NCBI GenBank assembly: GCA_013306675.1
Contig: JABLUY010000181.1
Coordinates: 16,100 to 80,099 of the forward strand
Direction: 5' to 3'
Length of the DNA: 64,000 nucleotides
Source: Thraustochytrium sp. TN22
Taxonomy: Eukaryota; Sar; Bigyra; Thraustochytrida; Thraustochytriidae
Shown here: piece by piece, positions 3,183 through 44,743 of the stretch
Position numbering within the stretch: position 1 is the stretch's first letter
How the letters are laid out: each line of letters opens with the position of its first letter
Translations under genes and position numbers: made by a program
The notes under the pieces: generated by a model
The model's input: the letters and a program-made list of their open reading frames with translations, nothing else
Told to the model about the DNA's origin: nothing
Database searches by the model: none

Positions 3183-3358
3183 CCTCCCGCGCGCCGCCGC
3201 CGCGCGCCGCCGCCGCGCCCGCTCGCCGCTCCGCGCGCCGCCGCGCGCCGCAGCCGCCCGATGCGATCCCGCCGCCGCCCGCCGCCCGCCGCCGCCGCGC
3301 CGCGCGGGGCAGGGAGGGAGGGAGGCCGGCAGGCGAGGGAGGCCGACCGCGAGCGCCG

Positions 3359-3390
<32 letters not shown>

Positions 3391-5119: not shown

Positions 5120-5152
<33 letters not shown>

Positions 5153-5900
5153 AGAGCAAGAGCAACAACCGCAACAATCGCAACGACAGCAAGCGGTGGC
5201 TGCGCCTCCAAGTCGCGCGTTGGCGGCTCTCCTTGCCCGCCTGCACGCACTTGACACGGAGCTGGTGCGCAACAATGACAACTACTTCATCTTCGAGGAC
5301 CTCCTCCGGGACATCATTCCGGAGCTCTTCCGTAAGCACCTGGACTGGGTGCGGCTACACGCGAGCGTGGGGCCGCGGCGCGCCGGCGCGCTGCCGATTG
5401 TGCCGTACCGCGGACTGGCCCTACAGGCTGCGCCGCTCGCGTTTGTGTACCGAGAGCGGCGCGACATCGTGCTGTGCCTGCGTGAGATGTACGCCCGGTA
5501 CTGGTGCCAGCTCAACACGGTCCGCAACACGCCACCAGGAACGCAGCGGCTACATCTGCTGCCCAATTTGTGCGCGCAATTCGAGAGTCTGATCCAGGAG
5601 CGGTGCAGCGACGTCTTGCACCACATGCTTGCGCTGGACGTCCACCCTCTGCAGGTGGCCATGCCGTGGCTGCACCTGGCGTTCGCGGGCGCGCTCCCGG
5701 TCAATCAGCTGCTGCTGCTCTGGGACCGCATACTAGGGTACAACTCACTGCTCCTGCTACCAGTGCTGGCCGCGGCCATCTTTCAGTACCGGCGGCCGGC
5801 GATCCTGGCGGCAGGCTCGGCGCGCGAGGTGCGGTTGATGCTGGGCGAGACCGCGAACCTTCAGGTGATTGCGCTGGTGCAGTCCTTTCTGTTTCTGTAA
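4122..5900 (+). CDS. TBC1D19: TBC1D19-like TBC-domain protein
   Basis: 592-residue member of the TBC (Rab-GAP-like) superfamily, closest to TBC1D19. The C-terminal signature is LLLLWDRILGYNSL, then AVLAAAIFQYRR-type sequence and a terminal ...LQVIALVQSFLFL, matching the layout of the animal protein, which is about 526 residues. QYLRQGCPASLRPQLYR (about residue 195) is the first TBC helix, followed by NNDNYFIFEDLL and LREMYARYWCQL. As in animal TBC1D19, the catalytic IPxDxxR arginine finger and YxQ glutamine finger are not recognisable, and the usual RxxxW tryptophan is replaced by Tyr, so classical GAP activity is doubtful. A long Ser/Arg/Gly-rich insertion (about residues 230-365) with a CAG-encoded Gln run near residue 333 splits the domain; it has no counterpart in the animal protein. 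The start is the first ATG after an in-frame stop. Intronless; convergent with Rab11. The last 60 or so bases are duplicated downstream. Confidence 0.85.
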
Positions 5901-8101: not shown

Positions 8102-11100
8102 TTACTTGCCAGGCCTGCGGCGACGTTGCTTCTTGACAAAGGGAGGCGGCTTGGCAGCCGCGTTGGCGGCGTCCTCAGCCTTCTTGGCGTCAATCTTGCG
8201 GTTGGCCTTGGCGATGTAGACGAGCGCGGCGCGCTGGAAGTTGGACTCCTGAGGCGCGATCTGAGCGTTGACCTCGTTGCGGATGGCAAGCACGGCCTCG
8301 TTGGTGTTGCGCTTCTTGAGCGAAAGAGCCTGCTTGAGTCGCTCGATGTTGCCGCGGAGCTGCTCGCGCTTGTCCTGAAGGCGCTGGTCGAGCTTCTCGA
8401 GCTGGACCGCGCGCTCGTCGCGGATGCGCACGTCCATGTCAGCGACCTGCTGGTTGTGGTTCTTGGTGCGCTCGGTGCGCTGCGCAGGGGTGAGGTTAGG
8501 TTCGAGTTTGAAGCTGTCCTTGAGGAGCTGCCGCGCCTGCGTGAGCTCCTGGATCTTCTCTTCCGCCTCCTGAATGGTCTTGAGCTTCTCCTGCTGGACA
8601 AACTCGTCCAGGGTGGCGGTGAGGCCGTCGATCTCCTGGTTGGTCTCGATGCGCGCAGCCTCCTGCGCCTGCTCGAGCTCGCCGATCTTGATCTGCGCGT
8701 CGGCGTCGAGCGCCATGGCCTTGCCCAGGAGGTCGCCCCCCTGACGCTGCAGCTCGAGGCCCTCCTGGCGGAAGTCTGCCGAGTAGAACCAGTCGTCCTC
8801 CTCCGGCATCTGCTCCAGGACGCCCTCCAGGTCGGCGCGGACCTGCTCCATCTTCTGCTTGCCGCGCGTCACGATGGATGCCTGCGCCTGGCGCATCCAG
8901 CGCTGCAAAATGGCCGTGCTGGCGGCCGACAGCTGCACCGGGCCGAAGTTCATCGGGTCGTCCTTGGACGGGTCGTCCGCCTTGCCGGCAGCGCCGCCCG
9001 CGCCGCCCCTGCCCGCGCCGCCGCCCGGCCCGCCCGCCTGCGTACGCCGGCGCGACTTGCGGCGCGCCTCACGGCGCAGCTTGGCGTCCTTCATGCGGTT
9101 CGCGTACTCCTTCATCTGGTCGCGCGCCTCGGGCCGCGGGAAGTCGCCGCCCAGGCGCGCCCGCGCCGCCGTGAGCCACTTGGACATGGCGCGGCCCTCG
9201 ACCGAGGTGCGCGAGACGATGACCGGGTCGAAGACGTCGTCGTCCGCCTCGTCCTCCTCATCCGAGGAAATGTCCACGGCGCGCGCCACGCGGCCGCCGC
9301 CCGGCGCGCGAAGCGCGTCGCGCTTCTTGGCCATGTCGGCCTGGCGCTGCTGGTCCAGGCAGATCTGGCACCGCGTCGTGAAGCGCGCGTGGCCGCGGAA
9401 GAAGGCTTGCCACAGCGCGCCGTCGAAGCCCTTGCCCGGGTACGCCTCCTCGTATGCCTGGATGAGCTTGTCCAGCGCGCGAGGGTCCGGCTTGCCTTCC
9501 TCGTCCGCCAGCTCGGGCGACATCTGCACGCCGCTCTGCTGGTTGCGCCCGCACTGCGAGCACACGTCGTCGACCTGCTTCGCAATGTGGCCCTGCACCA
9601 GCTTGGCAAAGGCGCGCCGCTGCCGCGCGCGCTCCAGCCAGTACTGCGCGATAGCGCGCGACGACGCGCTCAGGGGCGCCTTGGACCAATTGCGCCGCAG
9701 CAGCTCCTGGTCGTCCTCCTCATCCGACGAGATGTCCTCACGGTCGCCCTCCTGACGCCGGCCCTCGCCCATGGCCACCAGGTCGTTGTACACGTCGCGA
9801 ATGTACTCAATATTGGGCCGGCCGTCCGGCCCGGGCATCTGCAGCGTGCGCGGCGTCAGCAGCTCCGCCAGGTGCTGCAAAATCCATGGCCGGTTGCGCT
9901 CCAGGAAGCGGTGGCGGAAGCGCTCCGAATTCATCGCCTGCAGCTCCAGTCGCTCCTGCTCCAGGTCCTCTTGCCGGCCGGCGCCCACCGCCAGCTTGTT
10001 GGCCACGTCATCGTCCACCGTACCCTCCAGCGACTTTAGCTTCCAGATGCCCATGCGGTCACCGGCGCGCCGCAGCAGCCGCTCGCACAAGTGGCACAGC
10101 AGCCACACAATCAAAGCGATTGCCGGCATCATCGGGTCCGCGAACAGGTTGTACGTGTTGCGAATGTGCACCGTGACGCCCAGCACCAGGAGCAGAATGC
10201 CCCATGCGTGCACGCCCGCCAGGAAAAAGTACTGCGACGAGAAGCACAGGCTGTCGATGAACTGCAGCTTGGGCGCGATGCTCTCGTCCAGCGTATCGGC
10301 GTCCATCTGCCAACGGTTCTCACGCACCGAGAACCGGTACTGTTGGTACGAGACATACTCGTAAATCTTGAAGCCCAGCGTGAGCTCCTGCGTGTGCAGC
10401 AGAAAGATGTCCATCGCCAGCGTGAACGGAATGATGAGCAGCGAGAACATAAAGTAGAACTTCAGGTCCGTCTCGCGGATCCCGTAGTTGTCCGGGATCT
10501 CCGTCGTCTTGTTGAAGACGATCAGAAAGATGTTCGCGAACGGCGCCATCATGAGCGCCTGCGCCGAGTTCACATACGTCGCATACGCACCCAGCAAGGG
10601 CTCCACACCCTCCATCTCCAGCGCGATCAGCTCGTTCACCTTCTTCCACTCCGCCTCCTCGCGCGCCCGCTGGTCGCGCGTCATCTTGCGCTTGTTGTTC
10701 ACGAAGCGACGCCGCAGCATCAGCTTCCACTTGGGCCACATCAGCACGATGTGGTCCGAAATCGGCTCCGCCACGAGCCGCTCCAGGAGCATCATGCCCA
10801 GCTCCACCTCGTACGAGACCACGAAGTCCATAAAGTCCGAGGCGCCCATGGTCACGATCATCTCCACTACCTGAATCACCACGATGAAGGGCGCGATCAG
10901 GTGAACGTCGCGCACCAGGTCCTGCAGCATCAAGTTCACCACCATCTGGCCCACCTTGAAACACACCAGGAATTCCACCACGTACGTCTCGAACCAGTAG
11001 CTGTAAGAGAACTCAAAGATCACCAGCAGCACCAGCGACTCCACGAGGCTCAGCAGCATCATATGCGTGCGCTTCCAGAACCGCGGACGCCACGTCACGC

Positions 11101-14100
11101 TCGGCTCCAACTCGTCATCCTGCAGCTCTTCCAGCTCGTCGCTGTCGCCGCGGTTCACGCCGTACTTGGCGCGCTCGTCCCGCAGCCGCTCGCTGAAGCG
11201 CTCCTTCGGGATCGCCAGCCGAATCGCCGCGCGCATCATGTAGAGCGCCACCAAAATAAAGACCAACCCCATCCGGCCCTTGCGGTATCGCTCGCGGTTC
11301 GTGTCCGTCAGAATCAGCGTGTCCTGAAAGTTGCCCGTGATGCCCTCAAAGGTGGGCGCTGACGGTGTCTTGGCAGGATCGTCAGATCCAAGGAAGGAAA
11401 ACCAGAACAGCGTCAGTAGCGAGGCCAGCGCGACCGGCACCGACGCCAGCAGCATGCCGTACGCCGATGGCTTGCCCACCGTGCGGTAGAACGAGAAGAA
11501 TTTGAACGGCGGCGGATGCTTGAGCCGCGTCAGCACGCGTGCAAATGCCCACAGCACGACGCCCACCATCGTGCTGCCGAAGCCCACCACCGCAAAGAAG
11601 AGCGCATACACGTCCCAGCTGAACTGGAACGTGTTGATCAAGTCAAACCACCCGAGCGGGCTCCAACGCAGGTACAGCGTGTACCCGTAGTCGTCGCTCT
11701 CGCACTCCTCAATGGGCGGGTCATACTTGGCGTATTTCTCCAGGGTCGCCGGGTCATCCGACACCGTGCACATCTCCCCGAATCGGATCGACCCATACAC
11801 CAGCGACTTTTGCTCCGCCGTGTACTGGTAGTACATGAGGAAGAGGTAAACCTGCCGCGGCACCAGATTCTCCTGGCTGCCGTAGTTCTCTTCGACGGCG
11901 ATCGGAATCAAGTTCTCCGTGCCGATCAACGAAGCAAGGTTGTCGCGCCGGCCCCACTTCTCCGAGTCCGTTGCAACGAAGTCTTCCACCGACACAGGGT
12001 ACTTGGTCACGTGAAAGAGCGTCGTCTCCTCCCCGGCCTCGTACCAGCGCGTCTTGCTCGCGGCCCGTCCAATGTTCTCCTCGTACGTGCACGAGAGCGA
12101 CATGCCCGGGTAGTCCGCCTCCTTGTCCGCGCAGTCGCTAGAGTCCACACAGAACTTGTCCGGCGCGTACAGCTCGTCCAGCTCGTCCGGCGGGAGCCGG
12201 CATTCGTCTGCCTGCGGCTGCATCTGGTCCTTCCATGGGTACGGGCTCACATAAATGGTCTCCTCCAGCGAGTAGTGCGTGCAGTGCGGCGCTGGATGCA
12301 TCTCGAGCACCTTGCTCATGTAGATGTGCGAGTCGTACTCGCGGCAGTTGCTAAAGAATGGCAGGTACTGCAGCGCAAAAAAGTCCGCGCCCTCGCTATC
12401 GACCAGGTCCCACCAGCCCTCATCGCGCTCCAGCACGTCCGCCAGGTCGCGGGCAACGTACTCCAGCGTCGCGTTGCTCGAATTGCTGCTCCCGCTCGTC
12501 AGCTCGTCCAAAGTTGTGTACGTCGCGAGTCCCCGTCGCTGCCGCCGTGATGAGGCCTCCTCGAACTCCGTGTTGGACCGCGTCCCATACTCCGGGTCGC
12601 CAATGAGCACGCGCGCCACGCGGTCGATGAAGGCCGCATTCTCCACCTCGTAGGCGCTGTAGTCCGTGCCGGAGGCTGAACCGGACGAGCGCATCGAGAG
12701 CGGCAGGTTGTACGGCAGGAGAAGGTCGTCGAAGTCGTCCTTGACCAGCACAGAGACGAACTGGTCTCGCGCGCCCCAGTTTGCTCGCGACGGCCGGTGG
12801 ATCACGATATCGCCTGCGGCGGGCGAGATGTCCTGAAACGGGCCGTAGTACAGACCGTGCACGAGCTCCAGCACGACCACCATCTCCAGGTCACGCACCG
12901 CCGCGACGTTGATCTGCACTAGCGCGTGCTTGTTGTCTGGGTAGTCCTCCGGCTCGTGGTAGACGTCCTCAAAGAAGTACGGCAAACCATGCCGCTCGCA
13001 GCTGCAGCACTCCGGCGTCTCGTCCTCGTCCAGGTCGTCACAAATGAATCGCACTTTGCACGGCTTGCAGTCAAAGTACACCGACAGCTGATAGTGGTCG
13101 TTGTACGTCAGGTTGCGCATCACGTCGCGCAGATCCAGAGTCACCACAGCGACGTCCCACGCCAGCAGTGAGACGGTGCCCATGCCCACGTAGCCGTTGG
13201 ACACGTAATCACCGAAAACTTCCGAGGCGAGTTCCTCGTCGCTCGCCTCTCGGTCCACCATCTCAAGAGTGCCCGTCCAGCCGTCCATGTTGACCAGCGG
13301 GTTCATGGGCACAATCGGCATGAGGCGCGTCAGTACTTCGTTGCCGTTTTTCACGCAGTTGTAAATGTTCGTCGCGCCCACCAGCGAGGTTGTGCCGTCC
13401 GGACACCGGGCCAGGTCCTGGCACGAGCATGCGTCCAGCCGCCCAGACTGCAAGAGGGCCTCTGCCGCCTCGCCGAAGAGATCGACAAACTGCACCGCGG
13501 CCCACAGGTCGTAGAGAATCGCGTCGATGTACGAGCATTGCTCGGTCGAGCTGCACGCCACCTTGTTGTCCAGCTGTATCTGGAAGGCGCCCTGATACGG
13601 GTTGTACGAGGTTGCCGTCGCCAGCACGCCGTGACGGTCGCGCAGCCGCGCACCCATCAAATCGGCTGAGTCCTCGTCGATCAGGTTCTCTTCCTCGTCG
13701 AACACGAAGGCCTTGAGGTCGTCATACGAGAAGAAGGACATGCTGCGTTTGTGCATCTGACCGCCGTCATTGCGGAATTTGAACAGCTGGCACTCCTCCG
13801 GGTTTTTCGTGCCGTCGCAGTAGGTTTCCATATCGTATAGCGTGGCCTCGCTCGCATTCTGCGCCAATTCCACCAGACCGCCGTGCGCCACGTCCTCGCA
13901 CTCAATCGAGGGGTCCAGTGCGTGGTCGCACAGCTTGCGCGCCTTGATGAAGCGCAGCTCGCTCGTCGTGTAGGCAAACTGCGTCGGGAAGGCCCCCTCC
14001 GCCGCATCGTCGCAGCTCGCCAAGCCCTGCTTGCACGCCCACAGCGCGTAGACCTGGAGGGCGCGCTCCTGGAAGGTGTTGCAGTGGCACCGCTGACGGT

Positions 14101-17100
14101 CTGACGTGTCCGTGTTGAGACGCCATGTATGATCGCGGCCGCAGAACAGGTTGTTCTCCACCGCCAGCGAAATGTAGCCGTCGTACAGACCCTCTGCCGT
14201 ACGCTTCATGCGGTAGGTCTCCTGTAGTTCCTCGTTGATGCCCTTGAAGCACCGGTCGTCATGCGCTGAGATCTCGCGCGGCTCGAAATTTTCCGGATCC
14301 CAAGTTGCCGTGTACAGGTAGGTGTGATACGGGTCGGCTGTCGTCTCGTTCAGCGACCTCCGAAGCGAGTCGGCCGCTACCATGCCCGTGTAAGGGTTGG
14401 CGAGGCCGGTGGGGCAAAAGTAGCCCACAGGGCACGGCTTGGACTGCGCCTGGCCCTTGCCCGTGCCGCGCTCGCAGTAGTAGCCCTCCTCGCAAAGGAA
14501 GTTGTAGCGGCCCTGCGGCGCCTCAAGGTTCACGTCCAGGGTCGTGCCAAAGTCGCAGTAGTACCCGGGCTCGCACTCCACGTCCAGCGCAGTCACCGCG
14601 TTCGTGCCCTCGCCGCATACGTAGCCCTCGTTGCATGGCTGCGCCTCGGCTTTGTTGGTGTACGCGCAGATCAGGTCCGCCTCGCAGGTGCCCACGACCC
14701 AGGAGTCCGCCCGCGCCGTTGTATTGTACGCAAAGTAGCCCGAAGTGCAGTTTCGCGACGCGTAGTACCAGGTCGAGACGGGCTGGTCGATGTACAGCGA
14801 GCCGCGCCCGTAGTAGCCCTCGTACGTGCCATCGCCGTAACCCTGGTGGTAGACGCCGCCGGATTGAATCTCGTACCGCGGGCCATGAAAGTCCTTGAAC
14901 CGCTGGTAGACCTTGCTGCCATCCGGCTGTGTGTTGCGGTAGCACTGCACGGTCGACGTGAACGCGGTCCCGTTCGGGTAGTACACGGTTTGCGACGTGC
15001 CCTGGATCGCCTCCGACTCCACAAAGTTGGGTCCACGCCCCAGCGAGTCCACGGGGTAGTCCAGGTAGCCGTAGTAGAAGTTGTCGCCCTTATTCAGGCA
15101 CTTGTACCGCGACTCGCTCAGACCGGTCGGCGTGTACGGAAGCGGAAGGTCGTCAAACGAACAAGGAAATGACATGCCGTCCATCGGGCACGTTACGCCG
15201 GGCGGGCAGATGGTGCACTCACTGCTGTTGCGCAGCTCCCAGTTCTTGGACCATGTGCCGGCCGGGCAGCCTCGGCACACCACGCTCTCGCCGGGCCCTG
15301 TCATGGTCTTGTACGTGCCCGGCGGGCAGATGAGCGCCTCCGACGTGCCGTCATTCACGCACTGCGTACCGGCAGGGCACGGATAGCAGGAGACCGTCTC
15401 GATCGTGGGCGCGTAGTAGCCCGGCAGACACTTGGCCGGCTGCACAGTACCCTCCATGTATGCAAAGGTGCCAGGGTCTGTCGGGATGGGCACGGCCGTG
15501 CCCGCCGGACAGTAAAAGCCCTTCGGGCACAGGCCCGAGCCCTTGGGCGACGTCGAGCCGAGCTCGCAGTAGAAGCCATGCGCACAGGGCTGCGCGTAGA
15601 GGTAGTCCCCCTCGCGCGACTCGTCGTAGCCCACACCGCCCGGGCAGTATGTGCCCGGGGCGCACGGATATGGGCGCAGCGTGGTATCGTTTCGGAAAAC
15701 GTCCGCGGTCATGGTCCCGTTCGGACAGAAGAAGCCGGCCGGGCAACGCATGTCCGGCTCGCTGAGGCCGTCCATACTGCACACGAAGCCCGGCGGGCAG
15801 GTGGCCGGGTCCACGCGGCCGAAGCCGGAGCAAAAGTACCCAGGCGGGCAGCTCGTGCACGCCGTCTGGCCCACCATGCTGTTGAAGGTAGTGGGCGGGC
15901 ACGGTAGCGGCGTGTCCATGCCCTCGCGCGGGCAGTACGTGCCCACTGGGCACGAGAGGCGCGCCCCGAACGGGCAGTAAAAGCCAGCCGGGCAGGACCC
16001 GGCGCCCTGCGGCGTCGCGCTTCCCTCCGGGCAGTACATGCTCTCAAAGCACGGCTGCGGCGTCGTGAAGTTCTTCATGTGCCGGTCGCCCACGGCCGTG
16101 CCGGCCGCGCAATAGCTGCCGGCCGGGCACGGCACTGGCCGCCGCAGGTTGAAGGCGCTATACTCGAAGGCGTAGTCCGTCACGCGCATCGCGTCTGCGT
16201 CGCTCAGGCGCATGCAGCTGTCATCCAGGCAGAATCGCCCACGCATCGGCACGAAGGGCGCCTCCGGGTCCAGCGGTAGCAAGTGCCGCTCGGACCAGAA
16301 GCGTGCCGGATAGCTCGTCACCTGCAGACCAAAGTCGTCCGTCGCGTTGCTCCAGCACGCCGTCTGCCGCGATCCCAGCACGAAATCGCCGCCGCGGGGC
16401 GCACGGTGCTTGCGAATCGTGCCGGCCAGCTCACCCAGCCGCCGTGAGGGCGTCAGCTGGCTTGACAGCACCGACGGGTCGCCGCAGGTCGTTGCGGTGG
16501 TTGCCGTACCTTCGAGGCAGAAGTGTCCTTCTGGGCACGGCTGCCGCGGCTCCTCGGTGCCCGTCACGTCGCACACGAAGCCTGCCGGGCATATGCGCGG
16601 CACGCGCATGCCCTCCTCCGGGCACGCGTAGCCGATCGGGCACCGCAGACAGCCCTCCGTGCCGGGCAGGGGCTGATACGTGCCCCGCGGGCACAAGGTG
16701 AAGTTCCCGTTGCCCGTGCCGGGGCAGTACGCGCCCGGAGGGCAACGCAGCGCATGAGCGGCGTCCGGACAGTACATGCCGCCCGGGCACGGCCCCCAGC
16801 TTTCAAACGTGACAAAGTCCGTTGAGTAATCGTACGCGTTGTTCGACGCCTCCACGACCAGGTGCCTTCCCACGGCATCGTCCCCCACGTCCGGCGACAC
16901 GAGCACGCTGCACAGGAGCAGCGTCGGGCTCAGGTACACGGCGCGAAACTCGTGGTGGCCCAGACGACAGCTGAGGTCCGTCGAGTTCACGAACCCGCTG
17001 CCCTGCACAAAGAGCGACAGCCCGCCCTCCGTGCCAAGGTAGCCGCCAGACGGCATTACGCTGGCGACCGCCGCCTCTTCAGTGTAGAGAAATCGCTTGC

Positions 17101-20100
17101 CCGTGTGGTGAAAGTCTGCGCCGTTGACCGTCGTCTCCACGTCCACGAGCCGGGATCGGTACAGTGGGAACCCGTGCGCGTCGGGGTACAGCGCAGTTCC
17201 GTCCTCGTGCACGTGGCGGCCGAGCGCAAAGTAGTCAAGCGCCAGGTCCAGGACCGGTGTCAGGCACTGAATCTCGCTCTCGTGCACGAAGCGCGCCGGG
17301 ACCACGAGGCGGCCGTCGAAGCGGCATGCGAGCGAGGTGGAGTTCGCAAACCCGGAACCACGCAGGACGAGCTTGGACGCCGGACGCGACGCCGCGCCGC
17401 TACGCGGCACCATGCTGCGCACCTCCGGAGCCTCAAAGACCAGAAGTTCCACGGGCAGGGCCACAAAGTCCAGTCCGTTGCTCGAAACCTCCACAAGTAC
17501 GCGAGCAGGCTCCGCGAAGGCATCCTCCGGCACGAAGCATACCAGCTCAAATGCATCGACCCACGTGGCGGCCACAACCACGGCCGGCACGGTCTCCAGC
17601 GCGTCAACGACGGAGAGCCGGCACACCAGCTCGTCCGTGGGCGCGAAGTTACTTCCCATAATGCGCAGCTCCACCTGCTTGCCCAGCGGAGCTTGTCTGG
17701 GGAAGACGTCGCGCAGAACGACCGGGTCGGTGTATGTGAAGTTGACGCCGGTCCCAACGAAGTTCGTCGCCCGCGTCCCGATGCGGACCTCGCGAGGGCC
17801 GGCCCATGCCACGGCGGGGCTAACACAGTACACGCAGCTCGCGTTCACGGCAAAGGCCTCGCTCGGCTCGGCATTGCCGAACTGGCACGCCAGCTCCTGC
17901 GCGCTGGCCGCCGCCGCTGCCGCCGCCAAATGATCGCCCAGCACCACCACCAAGGTGCCGCCGTTTGTCGAACCATGGTTCGGGTACACGCCACGCACCA
18001 CGGGAACTTCCGTGAACTCGTACGTGAGCCCGCTACTTGAGAAGTCCTGGCCGTTAATGGCCACCTCCACTTGCACCTGGCCGACGGGCTGAGCCACGCC
18101 CTCTTGCACCGTGCGCGTCCAGGCACGAGTACCCACGAGCGTGGAGGACCCCTCGTCCACGCCGAGCCGCGCGTAGGGCTCACCGTCGGCAAAGCTCACC
18201 GTCCAAGATTGCCCGCCAGTCGAGTTCGTGTCTGTCCTCGACACAACTGCGTCGTGCAGCCAGGGGTCGTCCAGCCGCTGCAGCGCGCGCTTGATGTCCT
18301 CCGCGGTGGTGTCCAAACCAATGCCGATGTCCAACGTGCGCTCGCGGCAGACGCCCTCGTAGCACGGTCCTGTCACCATGAGCGCCAGCGTACCGGAGAT
18401 GCGCGCTGTAGTGCCTGCCTGATTCTCGGTCACGACCACCTGCGCGAGGTTCTCAACATTATCGGTAATCAGCACCAGCGGATCCAGATCGCCGACGAGC
18501 TCTTCCAGCGCGGTCACCTGCCAGGTCGCGGCAGCCACCAGCGTCACCTGCACCGGCGTCGCGTTGTAGCCGTTGCCAACCAGCACCTCGGCGAGCGCGT
18601 CCGCAACCTCCTCCGCCGACGCGTCGACCGCGAGGGACTGCGTGAGCCGCGATGCAGGGCTGACATTGGGTGGGAACCACGTCAGAGGCAACTCCACCAC
18701 AAAGGTGCCCTCCAGTGCGTTCCCGTCATCTTGCAGCTCCACGGTCTGCACCTCGTTGTAGGTCTCCAGATCCAGGATGGTGACGCTCGCCGTCAAGCCG
18801 GCTGGGCCCTCCACAGCCCCCATGTCCACGGCAAGCAACGCGGAAGTGCTTCGCCCGTCCAGCGATTGATCGAGAAAGGTCACATCCCAAATCGCGCTCA
18901 GGCTGCCATCCGCGGCGGTCGTGAACCCGTCGTGCGTCACCTCCACATCGGAGATGTAGGGGAGCAGCTCCAGCGCCGCGGCAAGATCCGCGCCTGTGGT
19001 GCTGTTAAGCGGGAGCAGGTCGGTCTGCGAGGAGCCGCTGTCCCACGTCACACGAAAGTTCCCGTTCGCGCCAGGCTCCGCGGTGCCGTGCGAGGAAACG
19101 GCCACAACGGTGTTGGCGTCCGCAAAGCTGGCCGTCGATTGCAGCGGCGCGTACGCACTGCCCACGTACGGCATCTCGTACAGCCAAGAGATCTTCCCGT
19201 TGCTGTCCGGACCCACCTGAACCACCTCTACCCCTCCACTCCAGGGGTAGAGCGACTCCAGCGCTGCATGAATGTCAGCAAGCATGTCGTCCTGTCGCTC
19301 GGCATTTACCGCAACGACAATGTCCGGGTCGCTCGAGTTCTGCCGCTGCAGCCCCACCGAGCCCTCTGGACCCTTGGTGCCGTTCTGCACCCTGTTTACC
19401 GCTACAGGCTCCGCTGTGTCCGTCACGCCGAGCGTCGGCTGCGCCCCGTAGTTCCGCGTCCATCGCCCACCCACCATCGGCACGAAGCTTATTGCCCAAC
19501 GAGTCTCGCCCGCGGCATCTGGTCCGGAGCGCGTCACCTCGACGGCATCGATTTTATCCAGCGCCTCAAGCGCGGCACGCATCTCCTCCGCGCTGGTGTT
19601 GCGGCTCAGCGGAGAGGTGTATTCCGCATCATACGAGAGCGCAAAACTCCCGTCACGGGCCTGCAGGCGTGGTGCCAGCGCGTGCCAGCGCGCCACCGCG
19701 TTGGTGCCCGCCAGGGTGCCAGAAAACACCGTCTCCACGGCGAGCTCCAGCCCGCTCGACACGTTCCAGGCCCAGCCACCGTTGATGTCGCTGGCGGGCT
19801 CCCTGACAACGCTCAACACGTCAATCTGGATGTCTGCGAGTGCGTCAGTGACGTCCTGCGCGCTCGCATCGTACGCCAGCTGCCTAGACTCGAGGCCGTT
19901 GGCGCGCAGGCGAAAGTCACCGCTCAGCGATGTCCCGGTTCCCTGCACCTGCGTGGCCACCAGGACATTGACATCCGGGCAATCCAAGAGTGCGTCATCC
20001 ACGTTGCCGACCCGGTCCACGTAGGTGATGCGCCACATTCTGTCCACCGCGCCATTGTCCTCTCGCGAGACCTCGAGCGCCTCTCCGGTGCCGAACGCCT

Positions 20101-35100: not shown

Positions 35101-38100
35101 CGCGTGAGGCCGCGCCGGCGCGCTGCGTGCTGAGACGAATCAGCGCGACCGCGGCACCGCCCACGACGCGCTGCGGCGGGGTGAGGCAGGAGAGCACGCC
35201 ACGGCGACCCGGCACCGCAAATGCCGGTGTCTCCTTCCAGCGCTGCGAGCCGTCGAGGCCTTGGAAGGCGCACACGAAGGGATCGCGCACGATACCGGCC
35301 TCGCTCATCGTGTTCAGGTTCGTCTCCAGTACCAACACGGTGCCGCCGCCCACGGGCCCCCGCTCCGGCTCAAGGGCCAAGATGCGTGCCGCGGGCCGCA
35401 CCATGACGGGCTCTGGTGCCCGGGCTACGTCAACGCCCGCGTTTACGGAGAGCTCGACCGCAAAGACGCCGGCGCCGAGGCCCGTGGGCAGCGGACAGCG
35501 GACGAGACGGCCGATGGTCGCACCGACGACAACCTCCCGCCGTTCGCCATCCACGAAGTGGCACTCGAGACCCCGGCCGCCATGCGTGGCGGGCGCCGCG
35601 CTCTCCAGCCACAGCTGCACCTCTTCGCCGTCCTCGTCGACCTCCTGGTCCACGATCTTGCGGACCTGAAGCGGCGCGTGAATGTAGACATAACCCGCAT
35701 CGGCGCGCACATTCTCCGGCGCGGAACGGTCGACGAGCTGAATGCGCAGGTTGCCCGTCTGTAGAAGGTGCGGTGCGCCCTCTCGACGGGGCAGAGCGCA
35801 CGTCACGGTGCCCTGCACCGCGTCAATGGCGGTGACGGAAGTCAGATTTGCCAGTCCAAAGTCGCACGCCAGGTCTCCGCTCTCGACAGCGACCGCGCCC
35901 GGCCATCGCAGGCGTAGGTCGCGCGAGGCGAGTGCTGGGACGAGACGTGCATCCGGAAACGCGACGGTCTCGCCCTGTGCACGCAGGAGAAGCGGATGCG
36001 GGCTTGTGGCAAAGTCGCGGCCGTAGTTGAAGGAAACCTCGACCTCAACACTGCCGATCTCGCCCAGCGCTGGCACGGTGCAGGCTACAGCGTTGCCGTT
36101 CCGCACGCGACCGGCGACAACCACGCGACGTGCGAACCTGCAGAGCGCCACGGCATCGTCATCCGACAGCCCGGGTGGCAGAACAGCAGCGAGGTCGGTC
36201 TGCAAGTGGAGGACCACCTCAAGGCCGCCCGTGTGTGGCCCTTCGCGCGGTTGCAGATTGGCGACGACCAGGTCAGGTTCGACGCGAAAGCGCTCGAGCG
36301 CGCCGAAGAAGGCAATGCCGTCGACGCTGAGCGCCAGCTCCACCATTGTGCGGGCTGGGAGTGACGGCGCGCGGCAGGCCACGGCGGAGCGGTCGACCCA
36401 GCGTCCGGGCTCGGGCTCGAGACCGCCGAAGCGGCAAAGCACCGGACCGAGCAGGAGCATCGCGTCTGCCTCCTGGGCAAGCTGCACGAGCACCCTTGTT
36501 CCGCCGCGCGGGGCGCCTGAGGGTGGGAAGAAGGAGGCCACCTCGAGACCGGGCGCCACCACGACGCGCACGGCCTGAGAGACCTCAGCGCCGTCATTGC
36601 AGCTGACAGCCAGCTCCACTGTGGTAGCGACGCCCGTTGCGGCCTGAGCCGGCACCGCGCAGGCGAGTGCCGTACGATTGAGCAGCTGAGCCGGAGCGAC
36701 AGCATGCGCGCCGAAATGGCAGGTCCAGGATGCCGAGGTGGGCGCCTCGAAGCGGCCGCGGAGCAGCAGGTTTGCACCCGCATCGACCCGCGAGGGCGTC
36801 ACGGAAGAAATCAGCACCGGCGCTGCGTACAGGAAGCTGGCGTCCGAGGCGCTGCGGTGCAGGCCTCCGTTGTTGGACACCGTCACGAGCGCGTCGCCCG
36901 TCGCCGAGACGGGCGGCGACACGCAGACGGCTTCGGTTTCGGAACGCACCTCCGCGGACGCCGCGGCGGTGCGGCCAAAGTAGCAGGCAAAGGAGGGGCC
37001 TGCGCGAAAGCCAGTGCCGAAGACGGTGACGGCAAGCCCGCCGCGCAGAGAGCCGAGCGCCGGCACAATGGCTGAGACCTGGGCACGCGCCACGACGCGC
37101 AGTGAGAGCGAGTTCGAGTAGTCTTGCCCGTTGCTGGAGAGCGCGAGTTGGACGGGCCCAGGGCGGAGCTGGCGCGCGTCCAGCGCGCAGCGCACGAGCG
37201 AGGGCGTCACCAGCGTCGCTGGCGTGGGTTCCGCGTCGAAGCCGATTCGGCAGAGCAGGTCCGCGTCGTGATGAAACCCTGAGCCGGCCACGTGGATCTC
37301 GGCGACCTGATCCTCCGGCACCGTGTCCGGCCACAGATGGTCAAGCTCGACGGCGTCCTCGTAGCGAAAGCTGTGGCTCGTGTGCGCCCCCGTGCTGCGC
37401 TCCAGATCCTCGCGGCTCACGAGCGCCTCGGGCAGGACGTGCAGGCTTGCGAGGCCTGGGCCAGCGCGCGCAGGCGGCGTCGTACAGCTGAAGATGCTGT
37501 TGCCCTGCGGGCGCGCCTCCACCACGTCTCGGTTCGCGAACACGCACAAGAGGGCGCCCATGTCCGTCGCAATGCCGGTAACCTTGATAGAGACTTCTGT
37601 GCCGCCATGAACCTGGCCGCTGCGCGGTGCCACGGACACGACAGCGAGCCGGCGCTCCACGCGCACCGTGGCGCCCGGGTCGGGCGCGGAGAAGTCCTGA
37701 CCACCGTTGAGCGAGACGCGCACCGGGAGAGCCTCCTCCTCATGCCAACTCGCGGCGCCGAAGTCGGGCACGGTGCACTCGGCTTGCGTGCTGGAGATGA
37801 GGCGGCCTTCGCCGACAACGTCGCCGACGGCGCAGACCAGACCAGCCCCGCCGATATCGGCGGCCTGAAAGCCCGTGCCGAACACCTGCAGCGTGCTGCC
37901 AGGCAGCGCGATGCTTGGCTGCACGAAGGCAACGCGCGCAAGCATCGCGTAGTGGAAGGCCGCATCGCCCCCCTCAAAGTCCACCGCGTTGGCCGAGATC
38001 TCGACGGCGACCGCCTGGCGGCCGACCGTCGGGACATGGGGCGGCGCCACACAAGATGCGCGTTGCGTGCTATACACCGTGGCCGAGACAACCTGCGCCC

Positions 38101-41100
38101 CTCCAAAGCGGCACAGGAGCTCGGTCTCGAGCGGAAAGCCTTCGCCGCGCAGCTGGACCTCGGTCCCACCAGTCTCGGGCCCGAGCTCGGGCTCGATGCC
38201 GGCGAGGGAGAGCGGCGGCAGAAAGGAGAAGGTGACGACTCCCGCGTTGCGACGCGGCAGCGGCTGCGATGGCGTGCCGACCGCAAGGAAGAATGTCGCG
38301 CCGGCTGTGAGGTCTGCCACCGCTGGCGTCTCGCAGGAGACGGACGAGGCGGTCACATTGGCCACGGCTACAGCGTACGAGGAGTCGCCATTGTAGAACT
38401 TGCATTCCAGAGAGCGGTCCAACGGGAAGTGATCGCCCGCGAGCGTTAGCTGCGTACCGCCCGTTTGCGCACCGAAAGCAGGGTAAACTGCGAGGACGGC
38501 CGGCTCATCCAGGGTGACGAAAGTCGCCGCTGAGGAAAAGCTGACACCGCCGTTCCACGAGAGTTCAAGCGCGCCGACACTTGGACTGTCGGCCGCGACA
38601 ACCTCGCAGTACACCGCCGTGGTGCTCGCATCATGCACTACACGTGCCACTGAGACGCGGCCCGTCGAGGTGAGCCGGCACACGGGCACGAGCGCGGCGG
38701 AAGGCGGCGTCTCCTCGAGCTCCAGCCGCACCTCCACGGCCTCGCCCATGAGGACCGCGGCGGGCGTCAGACTCTGAACCGTTGGTGGGTCGAGCGTTGT
38801 GACGAGGCCAACTGCTGGAAAGACCGTGTGGAGCTCGCCGCTCCCGTCGCTGTGGTGGCCGCCGACCAGGTCGACACGGTAGGTGCGCCCAGCATCGCTC
38901 TCGAGGCCGGCCGGCCACGTACAGGTTGCGAGGCCAGCGCTCAGCGTTACCGGCGCCCTGGCCACAGACTCGGCTCCTTCAGCGGGAGTGATCGAGCAGG
39001 CGGTCCACGCAAAGCTTTCGAGCAGGCCAATTGCCGCCGCGGCGTCCTCGGAGAAGCTGATCCATAGGCTCTCCTGTCCGCCGGCATGGAGCACCGACGG
39101 CCAGAGCGCCACCGCGGGGTCGCCGCTGGCTGGCAGAAGAAGCACAAAACTTGCCGCACCGGCCGCGCGGTGCGGCACTTGATCGCCGTCCACAGCAACC
39201 GTGAGCTCCCACACCACAGAGAGCTGGCCGGCCGCGGCCGTCGTGGCTACCTCGAGCAGCGTGTCCGGGAGGGCGCAGCGCAGGCGATCGGCGCTCATGA
39301 ACGAGGCGGCAGTCTCCAGGTCCGCCGGGGCGCCCTCGGCATGGAAGACGCACGAGTACGTGTGCTGATCGCTGGGCAATGCCGGAATGCGCCCGAGCAG
39401 GTCGATCGTGGTGCGGGTCGAGCCGAGAGAACTTGCCGTGACCAGTTCTGGATCCGCACGCTCAATCTCGGGCGGGGGAAATCCTTGGACCAGCGTGGAG
39501 CCAGGCAGCGCCACGCGGCCGGCCGAAAATAGCACACCGAGCGAGTAGTTGCGCGCGGCTGCCCCCCCAAGGGGCGGCACCGGGCAAACGAGAGTGAGTG
39601 CGCCGGTCTCGTCATGGGCCACGACGCGGGCGGCAGATACCCAGCGGCTGTCCGTGCCATGCTCGAATGCGTCAAACTCGCACTGAAGGTCCGAGGAAGC
39701 ATCTACGAGGTTCGAGGGGACACCGACCGCATGCACGGCGACTTCATGACCAGCGCCCATGACAAAGGCCTGCGGAGTATCGTTCGGAACGATGGCCGCC
39801 GCGATGCCGGTGGCTACGTGCCACAACGTGAAGGAAAGCACCGGGACGTGCTCGCCAAGCCACCTGCGCTCAACGACACCAACGGCCTCGACGGCGTCGT
39901 GCGGGATCTCACAGCGCAGCTCGCGCTCCGCGGCCCAAGAGACTGGCCCGAGCAGGCGCTGGGCAGCATCCACACAGACCCAGTCGGCAGCGGCGGCGCG
40001 GGAGACTGCCTCGCTCAGTACCACGCTAGTCGTGGTCCCTACAAAGCCGTGAGCTGGCTCGAGAGCTGTCGCAGCGGGCGGCGATAGCACTTGCACACGG
40101 ACCGGATCCCGAGGGTTGACAACCACGTTCCCCTGCGACGCAAGCTGCAGGCGCAGGACGGTCACGTCGAGTCCGTGCGGGAGCGCGCAGGAAAGAGAGC
40201 TGCCGGTGGGGTCTTGATCCACGATTGGAGTGCTCGCAACCACGGAGCCGTCCGTGTCCAAAGTCCAAAGGCACTGCACGCGTTCCACATCAAGGTGGTG
40301 AAGGTGAGCACCCTGGACCTGGATGAGGTGATCTTCGGTGCCAACGTGCGCGGCGAGTACATGCGTGGGCGAGGCAGCCCAGACCTGCGCAGAGGGCAAA
40401 ACCTCGAAGAGGTCCAGGGCGCGCGTCGCGTGGAACCCGCCATCGAGCGACACACTGATCTCGTAAATATCCTCAGCGAGTGGCGGCTGCACCAAGGTGA
40501 GACGATCGACCTGCACAGCCCGTGCCGTCACGGTGTGCTGGTATCCCGTGGCAGGGCTCCTGAAAGTGCAGGTGACGCTGGACGCGTCATCAGCATTGAC
40601 TGGAAAACTGCCGTGCAGCGTGATGAGAACACCGCCAGAGGCTGTGCCAACCGCCGGAAGCAGATCGTCGATGACGATGGCGGGCTCAACGGGAAGTTCC
40701 ACCTGCGCGAAGGCGCCGGACATGGCGCAAGATTGCGAATGCTCGGCGTGCTCGAGCCAGAGCCGTGGGCGCAGACACAGAGAGGCGTTCTCACCCGGCA
40801 TGACGGTGGCAAGGCTCGCAAAGGTGCAGGCGACAATGCTTGGCGTGAGCGCATCGGCAGCTACGACGAGGGAGTCCCAGTCGTTGACGCTGCCTTGGAG
40901 CGGCTCCAGAACGCACTCGAGGTCGCCTGCGGAGGCGAGCGATCCATCATGCGTTACCTGCAGACGCGTGGCCTCACCTGCACGAATGGAGACGAAGGCG
41001 GGGCGGACCTCGGTGGCGCTCGCATCGGGGCCGAAGGTCAGCATCAGGCTGTCCTCTGCCACGAGCGGCAAGGTGACTTCATCGGAAGGCACGATGGCGA

Positions 41101-44100
41101 CCGCGACTTGGTCACCGGCGCCATCAATGTCGGCACGTGCGGGCGCGAGACAGACCACCCGAGAGCTCTGCACTTCGATGGCAGGCACTGCGACAGCGCC
41201 GTTGAAGACGCAGGCGGCTGTCGGCGCGGAAACGACGTCGCGTGTCTCGGTCTCCACAACGATTGGGAAGCCACCAGCCAGCGGCACGACTTGGGGCCAG
41301 ATCGAGACGAGGCGCGGCATGACCTCGTAGGCAAATGGGACGGGCGCGGTCGAGCCGATGTCAAACCCGTTGTTGGAGACGGCGACCCAGACGATGAGCC
41401 CGTCGGAGCGCGCGTCGAGGTCTGGGTTGGCGGCCAAAAGGGCGGCGCGCGCCGGGACCCGACAGGCGAGCTGCGACGAGCTCAGGGCGGCGTGCGCCGG
41501 CACACGCAGCACGCCAGGACCGTCTGCACGGCCAATGTGCGGGCGCGGCGCGAAGATGCAGGTCAGGTTGGCGTCTGCCGTGTGAAAGGCGGAGCCGAAG
41601 ACCTGAACGTCCGTGCCCCCGGTCGATGGGCCCCGTGCCGGCTCCAAACGCTGCACGATGGCGTCCGACGTGAAGGTGAAGGAGGCTGCGGTCTCATATG
41701 TTGCGCCGTTGCGCTCCAGACGCACGGCGGCGATCTGGCCTGCGCGACGGGCGGGTGGGGAGAAGCACGCGATGGTGCGGTCGTCCAGGCGGTGCGCGGC
41801 GACGCGGACACGTCCAAAGAGGCAGGTCCAGACATCGTGCGGGCGGATTGCGTCGGCGGTCTGCTGCGCGGCAAGGGTGAGGGTGAGGAGAACCTTGGTG
41901 CGGCCAGCGACCGCGCCGTGCGTCGGGTGTATGGACGACACGACGGGCGGGTTCCGGCGCTCGAGAGCGGCCGTGTTGCTGCGAAAGCCTGACTCATTTT
42001 CGACAGCGAGCGAGATGCGGCCCGGGCGTGGCAGGTCCTCGCGGAAAAGGTCTGCCGGTGGCATGCATTGCACGAAGTCGGTCCCTGACGTGCCGCTGAG
42101 GCCCTTGACAGCAGGCGCAGTGAGCTCTACGAGGCCGCCTGTATCGGCCTCGGGGGCGTACGCGAAGACACAGACCAGGCCCTCCATGGCTGCGCCGATA
42201 AAATTCAACCCTGTGACCGTGATAAGGTCCGTCTCGGCGGTGATTTCTCTCGGCGCCACGCCGCTGATGATAGGAATGGCGGCGAGGCGGGTCCCGACCC
42301 GCATACGCTGCGACGCGGAGAGCGCGCTGCCCTTGCCGTAGTTGCCGAGATCGTTGATGGTGAGTTCGACCTGGTCGTCACCCACGTAGCGCAGCGGAGC
42401 ATCAATGGTGATCTCTGCGAGCGCCGCGTTGACGTTGGCAAGCGTGCCGGAGAAGTCGAGCGCAGTTGCCGTACGCGGCTCAAGTGAGAGACCGGCCTCG
42501 CGCGCGAGCTGCAGACGTCCGTCTGAGTCGCCCTGCAGGCTCAGACTGACTTGCACCTCGTGACCGGCGGGCGCCTGGGCGGCGTCGATGTCAGCAACAC
42601 CAAAGTTGAGCAGGCCGAGCTGCACGTGGTCGTAAGGGCGCGTCGCCACGAGATTTTCTGCGTCGGGGACCGCATGCACAGTGATTGGCACCGTGACGCG
42701 CACCGCGGCCTGCGCAAGGTCCTGGACGTCGGCTTGGGCGGCGCCCTCGAGTTGCACCGAGTACGTCAGCGAGGCCATCGCCTCGCCTGTGGCGTGCGCC
42801 TCGGGTGCATACGTGAGGAAGGTGTCGTCCGAAGAGAGCTGAAGTGGCAAGTCTGCGCTGGTGATGAGAGCGTCGCCAAGCCCGCGGTAGAGCGAGCCGG
42901 TGGCCGGGATGGCTTGGAGGACTACCTTGAGCGCGCGTCGGCGCAGGTCCGTGGCGTTGAGCACGAAAGCCACGGGCGTGTCCTCTTCGGTCTCCACGCG
43001 ATCGTCGATGTAGGTCGCCGTGCTGGGCAGAATGGCCGGGACAGCCGTGGTTGCGGCGTCGAGCGAGACGAGCTCCAAGCTCGCCCAGGCGTCGAGGCCC
43101 CAGACGGCGCTGCGCGTCCGCGAGAGCAGGTTCCACTCGTGAAAGGGCAAGTAGGCAGCGAGCCCGTCCTCCATGCCCGTGCTGCTGTACCTGGCGAGGC
43201 GGGCCGCCTCGGCGGCGGTGAGCGCGCGCGTCCAGAGGTGCACCTCATCGAGCTGGCCAAAGAAGAGGAACTGGCTCTGGCGGGCCTCGTCCAGCGTGCG
43301 CGCGCCAAGCACGAGCGAGGAGGAGGGAGAGGGAGAGGAATGCACAGCGGAGGTGGCGACGCCGGCGCTCACGGGCGCCTCGAGCGCCAGGCCGGCGAGA
43401 TTTGCGTGCAGCCGCGAGCGCGCGGTCTCAACGCCCGCCACATAAAGGACGGCCTCGTTGTCATCCCACGACAGTGCGAGGTGCGTCCAGGCATTGAGCG
43501 GCGGCGTGTAGTAGGTGTTCCAGGCCCAGGCGCGCGCGCTGTCCTCGCCCATGGTCACGCGCAGATCGCTGGACTGCTTTTGCGGCTCCCAGCTCAGGGA
43601 AACCTGAAACCAGGACCCGGCGGGTCCGCGCAGCGAGGCGATGACAGCCTCGGTGCGACCCGTGGGCGCCGCCTTGGTCGCGCGCGTCGGGAAGACCCAG
43701 AAGCTGACAGCGAGCTGCCGCAAGGTTCGGCCTGCCGTGCTTCCGGCTGGCGGTGGCGCGAACTTGCGCAGCTCCAGGACCTGAGCGCCGGCGAGCTGCA
43801 GAGCATAATCGGCGGAGCGCGCAGCGAGCGGCGGGGGCACGCGCTCAAGGACTGTGCCGATGAGCGCGAGCTGCGCGAGCTCCGTTGCGGAAAGCGCTCT
43901 GCCGTAGAAGAAGGCGTTGCGCAGCGCGCCGCGCAGTCCACGGCCCAGGGCGAGTGTGCGGTCGGCGAGCCCGGTCGCGGCGCAGGTCGCACCAAGGAAG
44001 GGCAGACTGGCGGCGACAACGCCGTCCACAGCAATGCGGGCGACCTGCGCCTCGGGAGCCGTGTCGACGGAGACGGCGACAAGGGTCCAGCGCTCCCGTT

Positions 44101-44666
44101 GTACGGAGACGCCTGAGCGCAACAGGTCGCCGCTGCCCTCCAGGCGGAGCACCCACTCGCCCTGGTCAATCAGGAGCGACCAGCCGGCGGTCGGGTCCTG
44201 CCCAAGCGAGGTGATGAGCTCCGTCGCCTGGTTCTCGTTAAAATCCGGCGCGGTGGCCGTGCGTACCCAGACGCCGGCTGCGAAGGCCTGCCACTTGCAG
44301 GAACGCAGGTCAAGTGGCAGATCGGCGCGCGCCTGGCCGTCCATGTACAGCGCTCGCGTGCCGAGCGGGCCTGCGCTGGTGGACCTCCCGCCCAGATTCA
44401 GCGCTTCGAGCGCGAAGCCGTCCTCACTCACTGCGTACGGCGCCAGATTGCGCAGGACCTCCGGCATGTCGCTGGTCGCGTCCTGCGTATTGTCATCGTC
44501 CATCGGGAAGAAGGCCAGCAGGTCGTCTGCCGCAACCACCGCCGCTCCCGACGCGCTACCTGGGTCAGCGGCCCTCACCGCTGACGCTAGCACTGCGACC
44601 GCAGCAGCGATCGCCACTACCCATCCTTTGTTGTCGGCGCCCCTCACGCGCCTGCGCCTACCTCGG

Positions 44667-44699
<33 letters not shown>

Positions 44700-44743
44700 G
44701 TTGGCAGCGTCGGCGTCGGCAGCGGCAGCATGGCCTCCGCCAT
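8102..44743 (-). CDS. Giant intron-free IPT/TIG-repeat transmembrane surface protein, about 12,213 aa
   Basis: One uninterrupted frame. The preferred start is the ATG at 44743 (MAEAMLPLPT), because it leads into a Gln run, a basic stretch and a signal sequence (WVVAIAAAVAVLASAVRA, probable cleavage before ADPG). The frame is open to an upstream ATG at 44899, giving 12,265 residues; residue numbers below use that frame. Order: two LamG-like domains (about 120-575), cadherin-like region (about 610-870), IPT/TIG block 1 (about 880-6370), repeat block of unnamed type (about 6390-6820), TIG block 2 (about 6830-7480), second repeat block (about 7490-8940), TIG block 3 (about 8950-9365), Cys-rich Tyr-Cys-Pro modules (about 9367-10170), unclassified ectodomain (to about 11075), 8-10 membrane segments (about 11080-11610), and a cytosolic tail with coiled coil ending PPPFVKKQRRRRPGK. 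TIG and LamG domains are extracellular binding folds, so a surface adhesion or recognition receptor is likely, but ligand and role are unknown. Domain signatures continue throughout, so the frame is genuine. Possible proteolytic processing is noted separately. Confidence 0.93.
8105..10050 (-). other. Giant protein: cytosolic tail with CxxC pair, repeated Trp motif and coiled coil
   Basis: About 645 residues. It has an acidic motif DISSDEED twice, three copies of a motif centred on a conserved Trp (SKAPLSASSRAIAQYWLERA; PVIVSRTSVEGRAMSKWLTA; PVQLSAASTAILQRWMRQA), two CxxC motifs (CSQC and CQIC, about 63 residues apart) that could bind one zinc ion, and a Lys/Glu-rich coiled coil of about 200 residues before a basic C-terminus. 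Confidence 0.75.
10060..11660 (-). other. Giant protein: polytopic membrane domain
   Basis: Eight to ten hydrophobic segments, including YALFFAVVGFGSTMVGVVLW, GMLLASVPVALASLLTLFWF, MGLVFILVALYMM, MMLLSLVESLVLLVIFEF, LIAPFIVVIQVVEMIVTMG, FYFMFSLLIIPFTLAMDIFL, WGILLLVLGVTVHI and MMPAIALIVWLLCHLCERLL. I recognise no transporter or GPCR signature. The protein is therefore a multi-pass anchored receptor rather than a single-pass adhesin. Confidence 0.8.
14390..16800 (-). other. Giant protein: Cys-rich Tyr-Cys-Pro module array (GCC2/GCC3/ephrin-receptor-like)
   Basis: About twenty short modules of the type CPxGxYCPxGT, for example CPPGAYCPGTGNGN, CPAGFYCPFG, CPPGYFCSGFG and CPKGFYCPAGT. An interruption of about 200 residues (around 14660-15170) precedes the last modules CEPGYYCDFGT and CPVGYFCPTG. 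This matches the GCC2/GCC3, ephrin-receptor-like Cys-rich modules common in large protist surface proteins. Confidence 0.85.
16800..18060 (-). other. Giant protein: IPT/TIG block 3 (4 units)
   Basis: Four TIG units (VRGVYPNHGSTNGGTLVVVL, LRDVFPRQAPLGKQVELRI, VRSMVPRSGAASRPASKLVL, VASVMPSGGYLGTEGGLSLF), each with the CxFG/CRL...C pair, immediately before the Cys-rich array. Confidence 0.85.
18075..22440 (-). other. Giant protein: unnamed about 100-aa repeats, block 2 (about 12 copies)
   Basis: Continues the G(S/T)FxLxF ... GDLPPL repeat type. Recognisable openings include LTGTFALSWDG, LSGTWGFSLDG, LHGSFLVRC, LSGDFRLRANG, RDGSFALSYDA and GNFRVTWDSG. Recognisable closings include WDVTFMSLAGDLPPL and WRITYVDRVGN. 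Several copies are strongly diverged, so the count is approximate. Confidence 0.65.
22460..24400 (-). other. Giant protein: IPT/TIG block 2 (about 6 units)
   Basis: Six TIG units opening VLQSVSPLFASPQGQTHLEV, IVEVQPERGNTRGG, LDALSVGAGPRAGGTALRL, VVSATPLSAPLRGGTLVTL, VLEVQPMFGPVSGGTLLTL and VQAVDPPYGTRLGGTSVVV, placed between the two blocks of unnamed repeats. Confidence 0.85.
24440..25730 (-). other. Giant protein: unnamed about 100-aa repeats, block 1 (about 4 copies)
   Basis: Units follow the pattern G(S/T)FxLxF-xxxxxxLPxDxSAxxLxxAL-(D/E)VTR-xxxWTVTFxxxxGDLxPL. Examples: LRGSFTLSFRSETTSALPF, WTVTFVGNAGDLAPL and VDGSFTLTFADSTTRPL. I do not recognise a named family. I have an impression of similar repeats beside TIG domains in large stramenopile proteins, which I cannot verify here. 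Confidence 0.7.
25790..42268 (-). other. Giant protein: IPT/TIG array block 1 (about 56 units)
   Basis: I count about 56 successive units opening with patterns such as VEPARGPSTGGTDVQVFGSAF or VRAVRPASGAAEGGTEVTVFG. Each continues to a conserved Cys pair of the form 'CRFG...V...C.AP' about 25-40 residues later. Roughly ten are degenerate. Spacing is about 85-110 residues. The units are diverged in both protein and DNA, so this is an old array rather than a recent tandem expansion. Confidence 0.88.
42290..43070 (-). other. Giant protein: cadherin-like/Ig-like linker region
   Basis: Residues about 610-870, including VETEEDTPVAFVLNATDL, LTYAPEAHATGEAMASLTYSV and VELTINDLGNYGKG. These resemble the cadherin-like repeats of large extracellular proteins, with the 'DxGN.G' ending. 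Family assignment is tentative. Confidence 0.5.
43177..44540 (-). other. Giant protein: tandem LamG/pentraxin-like domains
   Basis: Two concanavalin-fold (laminin-G-like) units. The first runs from LLAFFPMDDDN to LRNAFFYGRALSATELAQL; the second contains LNAWTHLALSWDDNEAVLYVAG and FFGQLDEVHLWTRALTAAEAARLA. The closing 'G.LDEV..W.RAL...E...L' pattern is characteristic of this fold. It marks the N-terminal, outermost end of the receptor and suggests glycan or protein binding. Confidence 0.8.
44669..44698 (-). repeat. (CAG)10 run encoding poly-Gln in the giant protein
   Basis: Ten perfect CTG triplets on the plus strand, read as ten Gln codons just before the signal sequence of the giant protein. 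A pure trinucleotide run of this length is likely to vary in length between strains. Confidence 0.95.

Follow-up and report, generated by a model that had tools for sequence, protein, structure and literature searches.

We analysed a 64,000-nucleotide stretch of the Thraustochytrium sp. TN22 genome (hereafter the window: contig JABLUY010000181.1, here C90, bases 16,100-80,099), in which a first-pass annotation made from the letters alone had described a 36.6-kb intron-free gene for a multi-pass TIG-repeat receptor that might serve in attachment, mating or the recognition of prey or surfaces. Our analysis points to a single-frame thraustochytrid gene for a giant surface receptor or adhesin, a reading that we regard as probable, though not strongly so, on the evidence of the sequence. 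The support that we count for it comprises the frame and its coding signature, profile matches to LamG, TIG and TIG_plexin, the charge of a membrane loop, glycosylation sequons, a repeat allied to domains of phage particles, and a membrane domain and cytosolic tail shared with a second giant gene, C35, found by searching the 37.9-Mb genome assembly. Giant modular multi-pass surface receptors are already known as a broader kind; what the C90 gene adds is a concrete, testable candidate for surface sensing or attachment in a labyrinthulomycete.

An uninterrupted frame and its ectodomain

The frame occupies 8102-44743 on the minus strand and runs unbroken for 12,213 codons plus a stop, encoding a protein of 1,299,176 Da, in agreement with the initial estimate of about 12,200 codons and 1.3 MDa. 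Its ATG sits within GCAGCCATGGCGG, and its stop-to-stop extent is 12,321 codons. Each of the other five frames of the same 36.6 kb contains 82 to 312 stops, so this frame, with one stop in 12,214 codons, is far beyond chance. The guanine-plus-cytosine (GC) content at codon positions 1, 2 and 3 is 0.68, 0.51 and 0.82, and the third position comes out highest in every one of the 25 successive stretches into which the frame was cut (24 of 500 codons, then a shorter remainder). Such constancy speaks against a long intron hidden in the frame, as it does against a join within untranslated DNA. Because few stops and this codon-position signature coincide, the frame looks coding throughout. The terms intron-free and single exon, as applied to C90, denote an uninterrupted frame read from DNA alone. 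It is very improbable that the locus is something other than one gene, such as a pseudogene, a run of separate genes read as one, or distinct loci joined by the assembly: the window contains no N, the codon signature is constant along the frame, and the order of TIG domains, Cys modules, membrane domain and tail recurs on another contig in C35.

The frame had also been thought exceptional in length. Its size is real, but it is not a lone case, since C35 has 10,347 codons, a frame on contig C66 has 16,302, and there are further TIG-containing frames: six of 4,300-4,700 codons on C277, C11, C99, C399 (two, about 15 kb apart) and C409, and one of 1,286 codons on C40. Very long unbroken genes recur in this genome, an observation relevant to the synthesis of transcripts and proteins of this size.

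Profile matches for LamG and TIG, the Cys modules and hydropathy bore out the domain order and surface-receptor anatomy that had been proposed. The features are as follows, from the N-terminus to the C-terminus of the protein.

8102..44743, minus strand: the entire open frame, with start codon at 44743 and stop codon at 8102 (12,213 codons and the stop)
44561..44743, minus strand: N-terminus with signal-like hydrophobic segment (residues 41-59; hydropathy)
43205..43720, minus strand: Laminin_G_3, best of 2 stretches (residues 342-513; Pfam E 1.3e-21)
25739..42274, minus strand: TIG array 1, with 56 copies of which two are weak (residues 824-6335; Pfam and genome-built TIG profile)
24545..25597, minus strand: repeat block A, 4 copies (residues 6383-6733; repeat profile and phage profile matches)
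22463..24379, minus strand: TIG array 2, 6 copies (residues 6789-7427; genome-built TIG profile)
18179..22096, minus strand: repeat block B, 12 copies, one of them weak (residues 7550-8855; repeat profile and phage profile matches)
16829..18004, minus strand: TIG array 3, 4 copies (residues 8914-9305; genome-built TIG profile)
14414..16789, minus strand: Cys modules of GCC2/GCC3 (Ephrin_rec_like) type (residues 9319-10110; alignment to C35, motif count)
11624..14413, minus strand: extracellular juxtamembrane region (residues 10111-11040; no Pfam match, partly aligned to C35)
10091..11611, minus strand: polytopic membrane domain, about 9-11 segments (residues 11045-11551; hydropathy, alignment A1 to C35)
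9287..9754, minus strand: cytosolic module with two CxxC pairs, kept in C35 (alignment A4)
9578..9706, minus strand: cytosolic W-L motif, copy 1 (alignment A3)
9125..9253, minus strand: cytosolic W-L motif, copy 2, the most diverged (alignment A3)
8840..8968, minus strand: cytosolic W-L motif, copy 3 (alignment A3)
8144..8653, minus strand: possible coiled-coil tail (residues 12031-12200; heptad periodicity)

The LamG domain that had been read by eye is recognised by the Pfam profile Laminin_G_3 in two stretches, at 77.8 bits against a cut-off of 27.6. For IPT/TIG (PF01833), the protein was scanned as two pieces sharing 100 residues, and these scored 399.5 and 470.7 bits against a cut-off of 20.9. 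With a TIG profile built from this genome we counted 64 copies at a domain E≤1e-4 and 66 at E≤0.1, within the range of about 60-66 first suggested; the last two fall within decoy range, because the best of four decoys (reversed and shuffled) reached 1.2e-4. The profiles TIG_plexin and Anth_Ig (Pfam) and CoaZ_rpt_PGGG (NCBIfam) also exceed their cut-offs inside the TIG arrays, and we take these matches to be the same immunoglobulin-like (Ig-like) units read by other profiles. The best match of residues 1-4900 in the PDB is plexin-A1 (E 7e-7; the PDB searches with long stretches covered these residues and the last 2,913). Downstream of the arrays, residues 9319-10110 carry nine [YF]CP motifs and a run of C-x2-G modules. 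The proposal of Tyr-Cys-Pro modules of GCC2/GCC3 type is upheld by this count and by alignment to C35, but not by a direct Pfam match: scans covering the whole C90 protein returned no Ephrin_rec_like match, and the name derives from C35, in which Pfam finds four such stretches. The ectodomain, with 46 N-glycosylation sequons, would extend over roughly 11,000 residues as a stalk of about 80 small domains.

The membrane domain, the cytosolic tail and the sister gene

Hydropathy analysis revealed nine hydrophobic peaks at residues 11045-11551, perhaps representing up to eleven segments, in keeping with the polytopic domain of the earlier description. The first inner loop, between segments 1 and 2, contains six Lys or Arg residues and no Asp or Glu, a charge that fits an N-terminus outside the cell. 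The cytosolic part comprises about 660 residues and holds the module with two CxxC pairs together with a motif of the form FGPVxLSxASxxIxxxWL, of which C90 and C35 have three copies each, variably diverged. Of the coiled-coil tail that had been predicted, the long tail itself is present with modest heptad periodicity, but this periodicity is the sole support for a coiled coil.

When the last 1,199 residues of the C90 protein were used as a query against the genome, C35 was the only match besides the query itself at E≤0.01, and the CxxC module likewise matched only C90 and C35 at E≤0.1. C35, of which 10,067 residues follow the likely ATG, aligns with C90 at 32% identity over residues 8887-9858 and at 27% over residues 10532-11801, and the membrane domains are 35% identical (alignment A1). 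Together with the conserved tail module, this identity suggests that the membrane and cytosolic parts have been kept by selection. As in C90, a TIG array, with 57 copies at E≤1e-4 in C35, is followed by Cys modules, a membrane domain and a CxxC/W-L tail. C35 differs in its N-terminus, where three related units can be seen by eye and Pfam finds Cadherin_4 and no LamG, and, by eye, it has no coiled-coil-like extension.

The membrane domain gave no Pfam or PDB match, and the last 2,913 residues gave nothing convincing in the PDB (best E 0.018). Among viral contigs, 45 stretches matched the search pattern and none was a relative of the membrane domain; in the libraries searched, which did not include the proteins of other protists, no relative was found outside this genome.

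Meckelin (TMEM67) is a ciliary receptor with a Cys-rich ectodomain and a polytopic domain, and the C90 protein has a like order of parts, with short look-alike stretches by eye. That C90 encodes a giant meckelin relative was therefore plausible on inspection, but family search, profile alignment and local-shuffle alignment all failed to support it, and we give it very little credence. Specifically, PF09773 has one match in the genome, on contig C401 and on neither C90 nor C35; hhalign of the C90/C35 profile to the C401 meckelin gave a probability of 0.2% and E 0.25; and the pairwise z-scores were 0.8 and -1.0. The C401 gene itself (C401:145829-148252, PF09773 E 1.7e-174) is a single frame of 1,224 codons, and from its presence the organism probably builds cilia.

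If the gene does encode a receptor or adhesin, the protein would enter the secretory pathway, and its ectodomain would form a stalk that, were it straight, would span a few hundred nanometres, a small domain being about 4 nm long. Such a stalk could present the LamG domains and the repeats of blocks A and B at a distance from the cell. The Cys modules might then relay contact with a surface, or with a particle bearing glycans, to the polytopic domain, and partners that anchor or signal might dock on the CxxC-pair module and W-L motifs. C90 and C35 may act as alternative or partner receptors. The main text of an ectoplasmic net proteome study (PMC12221091) does not contain the words 'tig', 'plexin', 'lectin', 'ephrin' or 'fibronectin'. 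A literature search joining 'thraustochytrid' and 'TIG domain' found no paper, and in the wider literature none of the matches listed concerned the C90 protein, as judged from title and abstract opening.

A repeat shared with phage virions

Two further blocks of the ectodomain had been annotated as unnamed repeats. The repeats are real, numbering 16 copies, one of them weak (0.006, with the best decoy at 0.051), but they are not without relatives, which occur in phage virions and in planctomycete frames. A profile of 14 copies (A2) matched the tail-tip cage protein gp23 of phage Bxb1 (9d93_Ma) in three stretches at E 3.3e-28 and the Bxb1 major capsid protein at E 5.8e-6. Among the matches listed for a single copy were, at 38.6-40.5% identity, minor tail proteins of mycobacteriophages and tail sheaths of Gordonia phages. 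A hidden Markov model built from the window copies found three copies in a protein of phage Timshel and one in a protein of phage Skog at 2e-12 to 4e-14, where 200 shuffles reached 0.003; reciprocally, a model built from the phage copies found 10 places in C90 at E≤0.05 (best 2e-9), eight of which beat the best decoy (0.009). Profiles in both directions relate the repeat to a domain found in the tails and capsids of actinobacteriophages, and thereby connect giant eukaryotic proteins with a domain of phage particles. Bxb1 gp23 and the Timshel protein resemble C90 in carrying the repeat in tandem, whereas the phage tail proteins are virion parts of 583-685 residues.

The reach of these matches depended on the query. 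A tblastn search of phages with the 1,325-residue repeat block gave no match at E≤1e-3. A single repeat at E≤10 matched 474 of 50,697 phage records; among the 15 listed, several of which are two records of one phage, twelve had E≤4e-4 and the last, at E 9, is chance. A C66 stretch used as a query retrieved 277 phage records at E≤1e-3 and one of 72,556 plasmids. One of 14 repeat copies matched in PHROGs, and the TIG profile hit the Skog protein once, weakly (E 0.004), at a place overlapping the Skog repeat. Within the thraustochytrid genome, 34 of 45 phage-repeat matches fell in the 16,302-codon frame of C66, four in C90 and seven on other contigs. The C66 frame (C66:165526-214431, minus strand) has a signal-like start and FN3-looking units by eye in the two ends read, and frames of 7,961, 3,692, 3,698 and 1,669 codons on contigs C126, C420, C93 and C446, respectively, also match the repeat.

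Prokaryote genomes searched with the C66 alignment A5 yielded five relatives among 104 pattern-matching stretches: three planctomycete frames (L042, L043 and L044) with 9, 13 and 9 copies at E≤1e-3, and two actinobacterial loci with one copy each. With one window repeat as the query, 88 genome-contig and 11 viral-contig stretches matched the pattern and none was a relative. The planctomycete frames span 4,060, 3,040 and 2,494 codons, and those of L042 and L043 continue beyond the ends of their loci. They resemble C90 as giant proteins with arrays of the same repeat; they differ in being bacterial and in that the TIG profile matched none of the scanned frames at E≤1e-5. Among the 57 copies admitted to the comparison (E≤1e-5, 45 or more model positions), those of C90 had a mean identity of 0.285 to phage, 0.273 to planctomycete, 0.276 to actinobacterial and 0.292 to C66 copies. 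Transfer from phage to eukaryote is unsupported as a direction by these nearly equal values: phage copies come no closer to those of C90 than planctomycete copies do, so the values favour no direction of descent.

The long, uniform TIG array would also suit a structural fibre of the cell coat, the flagellar hairs or the ectoplasmic net, in which the arrays provide length and strength and the membrane part is an anchor. The C66 giant frame, with its signal-like start, FN3-looking units and the same phage-virion-like repeat, also favours this view. A simple anchor, however, needs neither a polytopic domain nor a conserved two-CxxC tail, and LamG near the N-terminus suggests binding; we therefore regard a fibre as unlikely, though it is the alternative that we take most seriously. 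The receptor or adhesin reading has a more specific form, about which we are doubtful: C90 may be a receptor whose membrane domain and cytosolic module represent a new class, and whose 16 repeats shared with phages and planctomycetes hold surface glycans of bacteria or algae hundreds of nanometres off the cell in order to sense prey or substrate. According to an excerpt of PMC13033339, phage Douge has Ig-like domains that bind mycobacterial glycans, and glycan binding by the C90 repeats is proposed by analogy. This analogical basis weighs against the receptor reading, as do two results: no Douge chain was among the 7 PDB sequences matched by the repeat profile at E≤1, and C35 has no detectable phage-virion-like repeat, which places the repeat outside the shared core.

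The genomic setting and known families

The stramenopile-type host that had been proposed is supported by polyunsaturated fatty acid (PUFA) synthase genes in the same genome. A 3,044-codon frame on C124 matches the omega_3_PfaA family at 2539.7 bits including in-frame neighbours (cut-off 1010.1), and the opposite strand has a 2,083-codon frame with further matches, which begin some 2.6 kb from the first; a divergent PUFA synthase gene pair is typical of thraustochytrids. Elsewhere in the window we found a bestrophin-like frame (50217-51875, minus strand; PF25539, E 1.1e-16), an NHL-repeat frame (52377-55007, plus strand; PF01436, E 1.5e-25) and a RabGAP-TBC frame (4122-5900, plus strand; PF00566, E 2.3e-10). 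Frames at 55269-60860 (minus strand, 1,863 codons) and 75-3437 (plus strand, 1,120 codons) had no Pfam match at E≤0.01.

In apicomplexans and ciliates, regulated exocytosis involves the cysteine repeat modular proteins (CRMPs), which share with C90 a common plan: a giant modular N-terminal ectodomain, ephrin-receptor-like Cys modules, a multi-pass domain, of nine segments in CRMPs, and a cytosolic C-terminus (excerpts of PMC9815656 and PMC9670195). In C90, the ephrin-receptor-like modules before the membrane domain are recognised through the C35 alignment. The same excerpts describe no TIG array in CRMPs. C90 might thus be a CRMP member or cousin, which we consider quite unlikely. The membrane domain did not stand out from local shuffles when aligned with an in-genome family on C11 and C99, which looks CRMP-like to us and which alone represents the nine-segment core in this comparison: the z-scores were 2.1 (C90-C11), 0.3 (C35-C11) and 1.3 (C90-C99), whereas an unrelated control, C35 against bestrophin, reached 2.6. 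The C11 protein itself shows by eye a C-type lectin, Cys modules, cadherin, TIG and, by hydropathy, about ten membrane segments, of which TIG was the part tested by profile. Going by the CRMP domains listed in the excerpt of PMC9815656, the C11 family resembles CRMPs more closely than the C90 protein does.

Other TIG-bearing families differ more plainly. Fibrocystin/PKHD1 has G8 and parallel beta-helix repeats beside its TIG domains, and neither was matched in C90 by Pfam at E≤1. Plexins combine TIG domains with Sema, PSI and cytosolic plexin domains in a single-pass protein. No Sema, PSI or plexin cytosolic Pfam match was found in the C90 protein at E≤1. What C90 has in common with plexins is the TIG domains, with the TIG_plexin profile above its cut-off; what sets it apart is its polytopic membrane domain, in contrast to the single pass of plexins.

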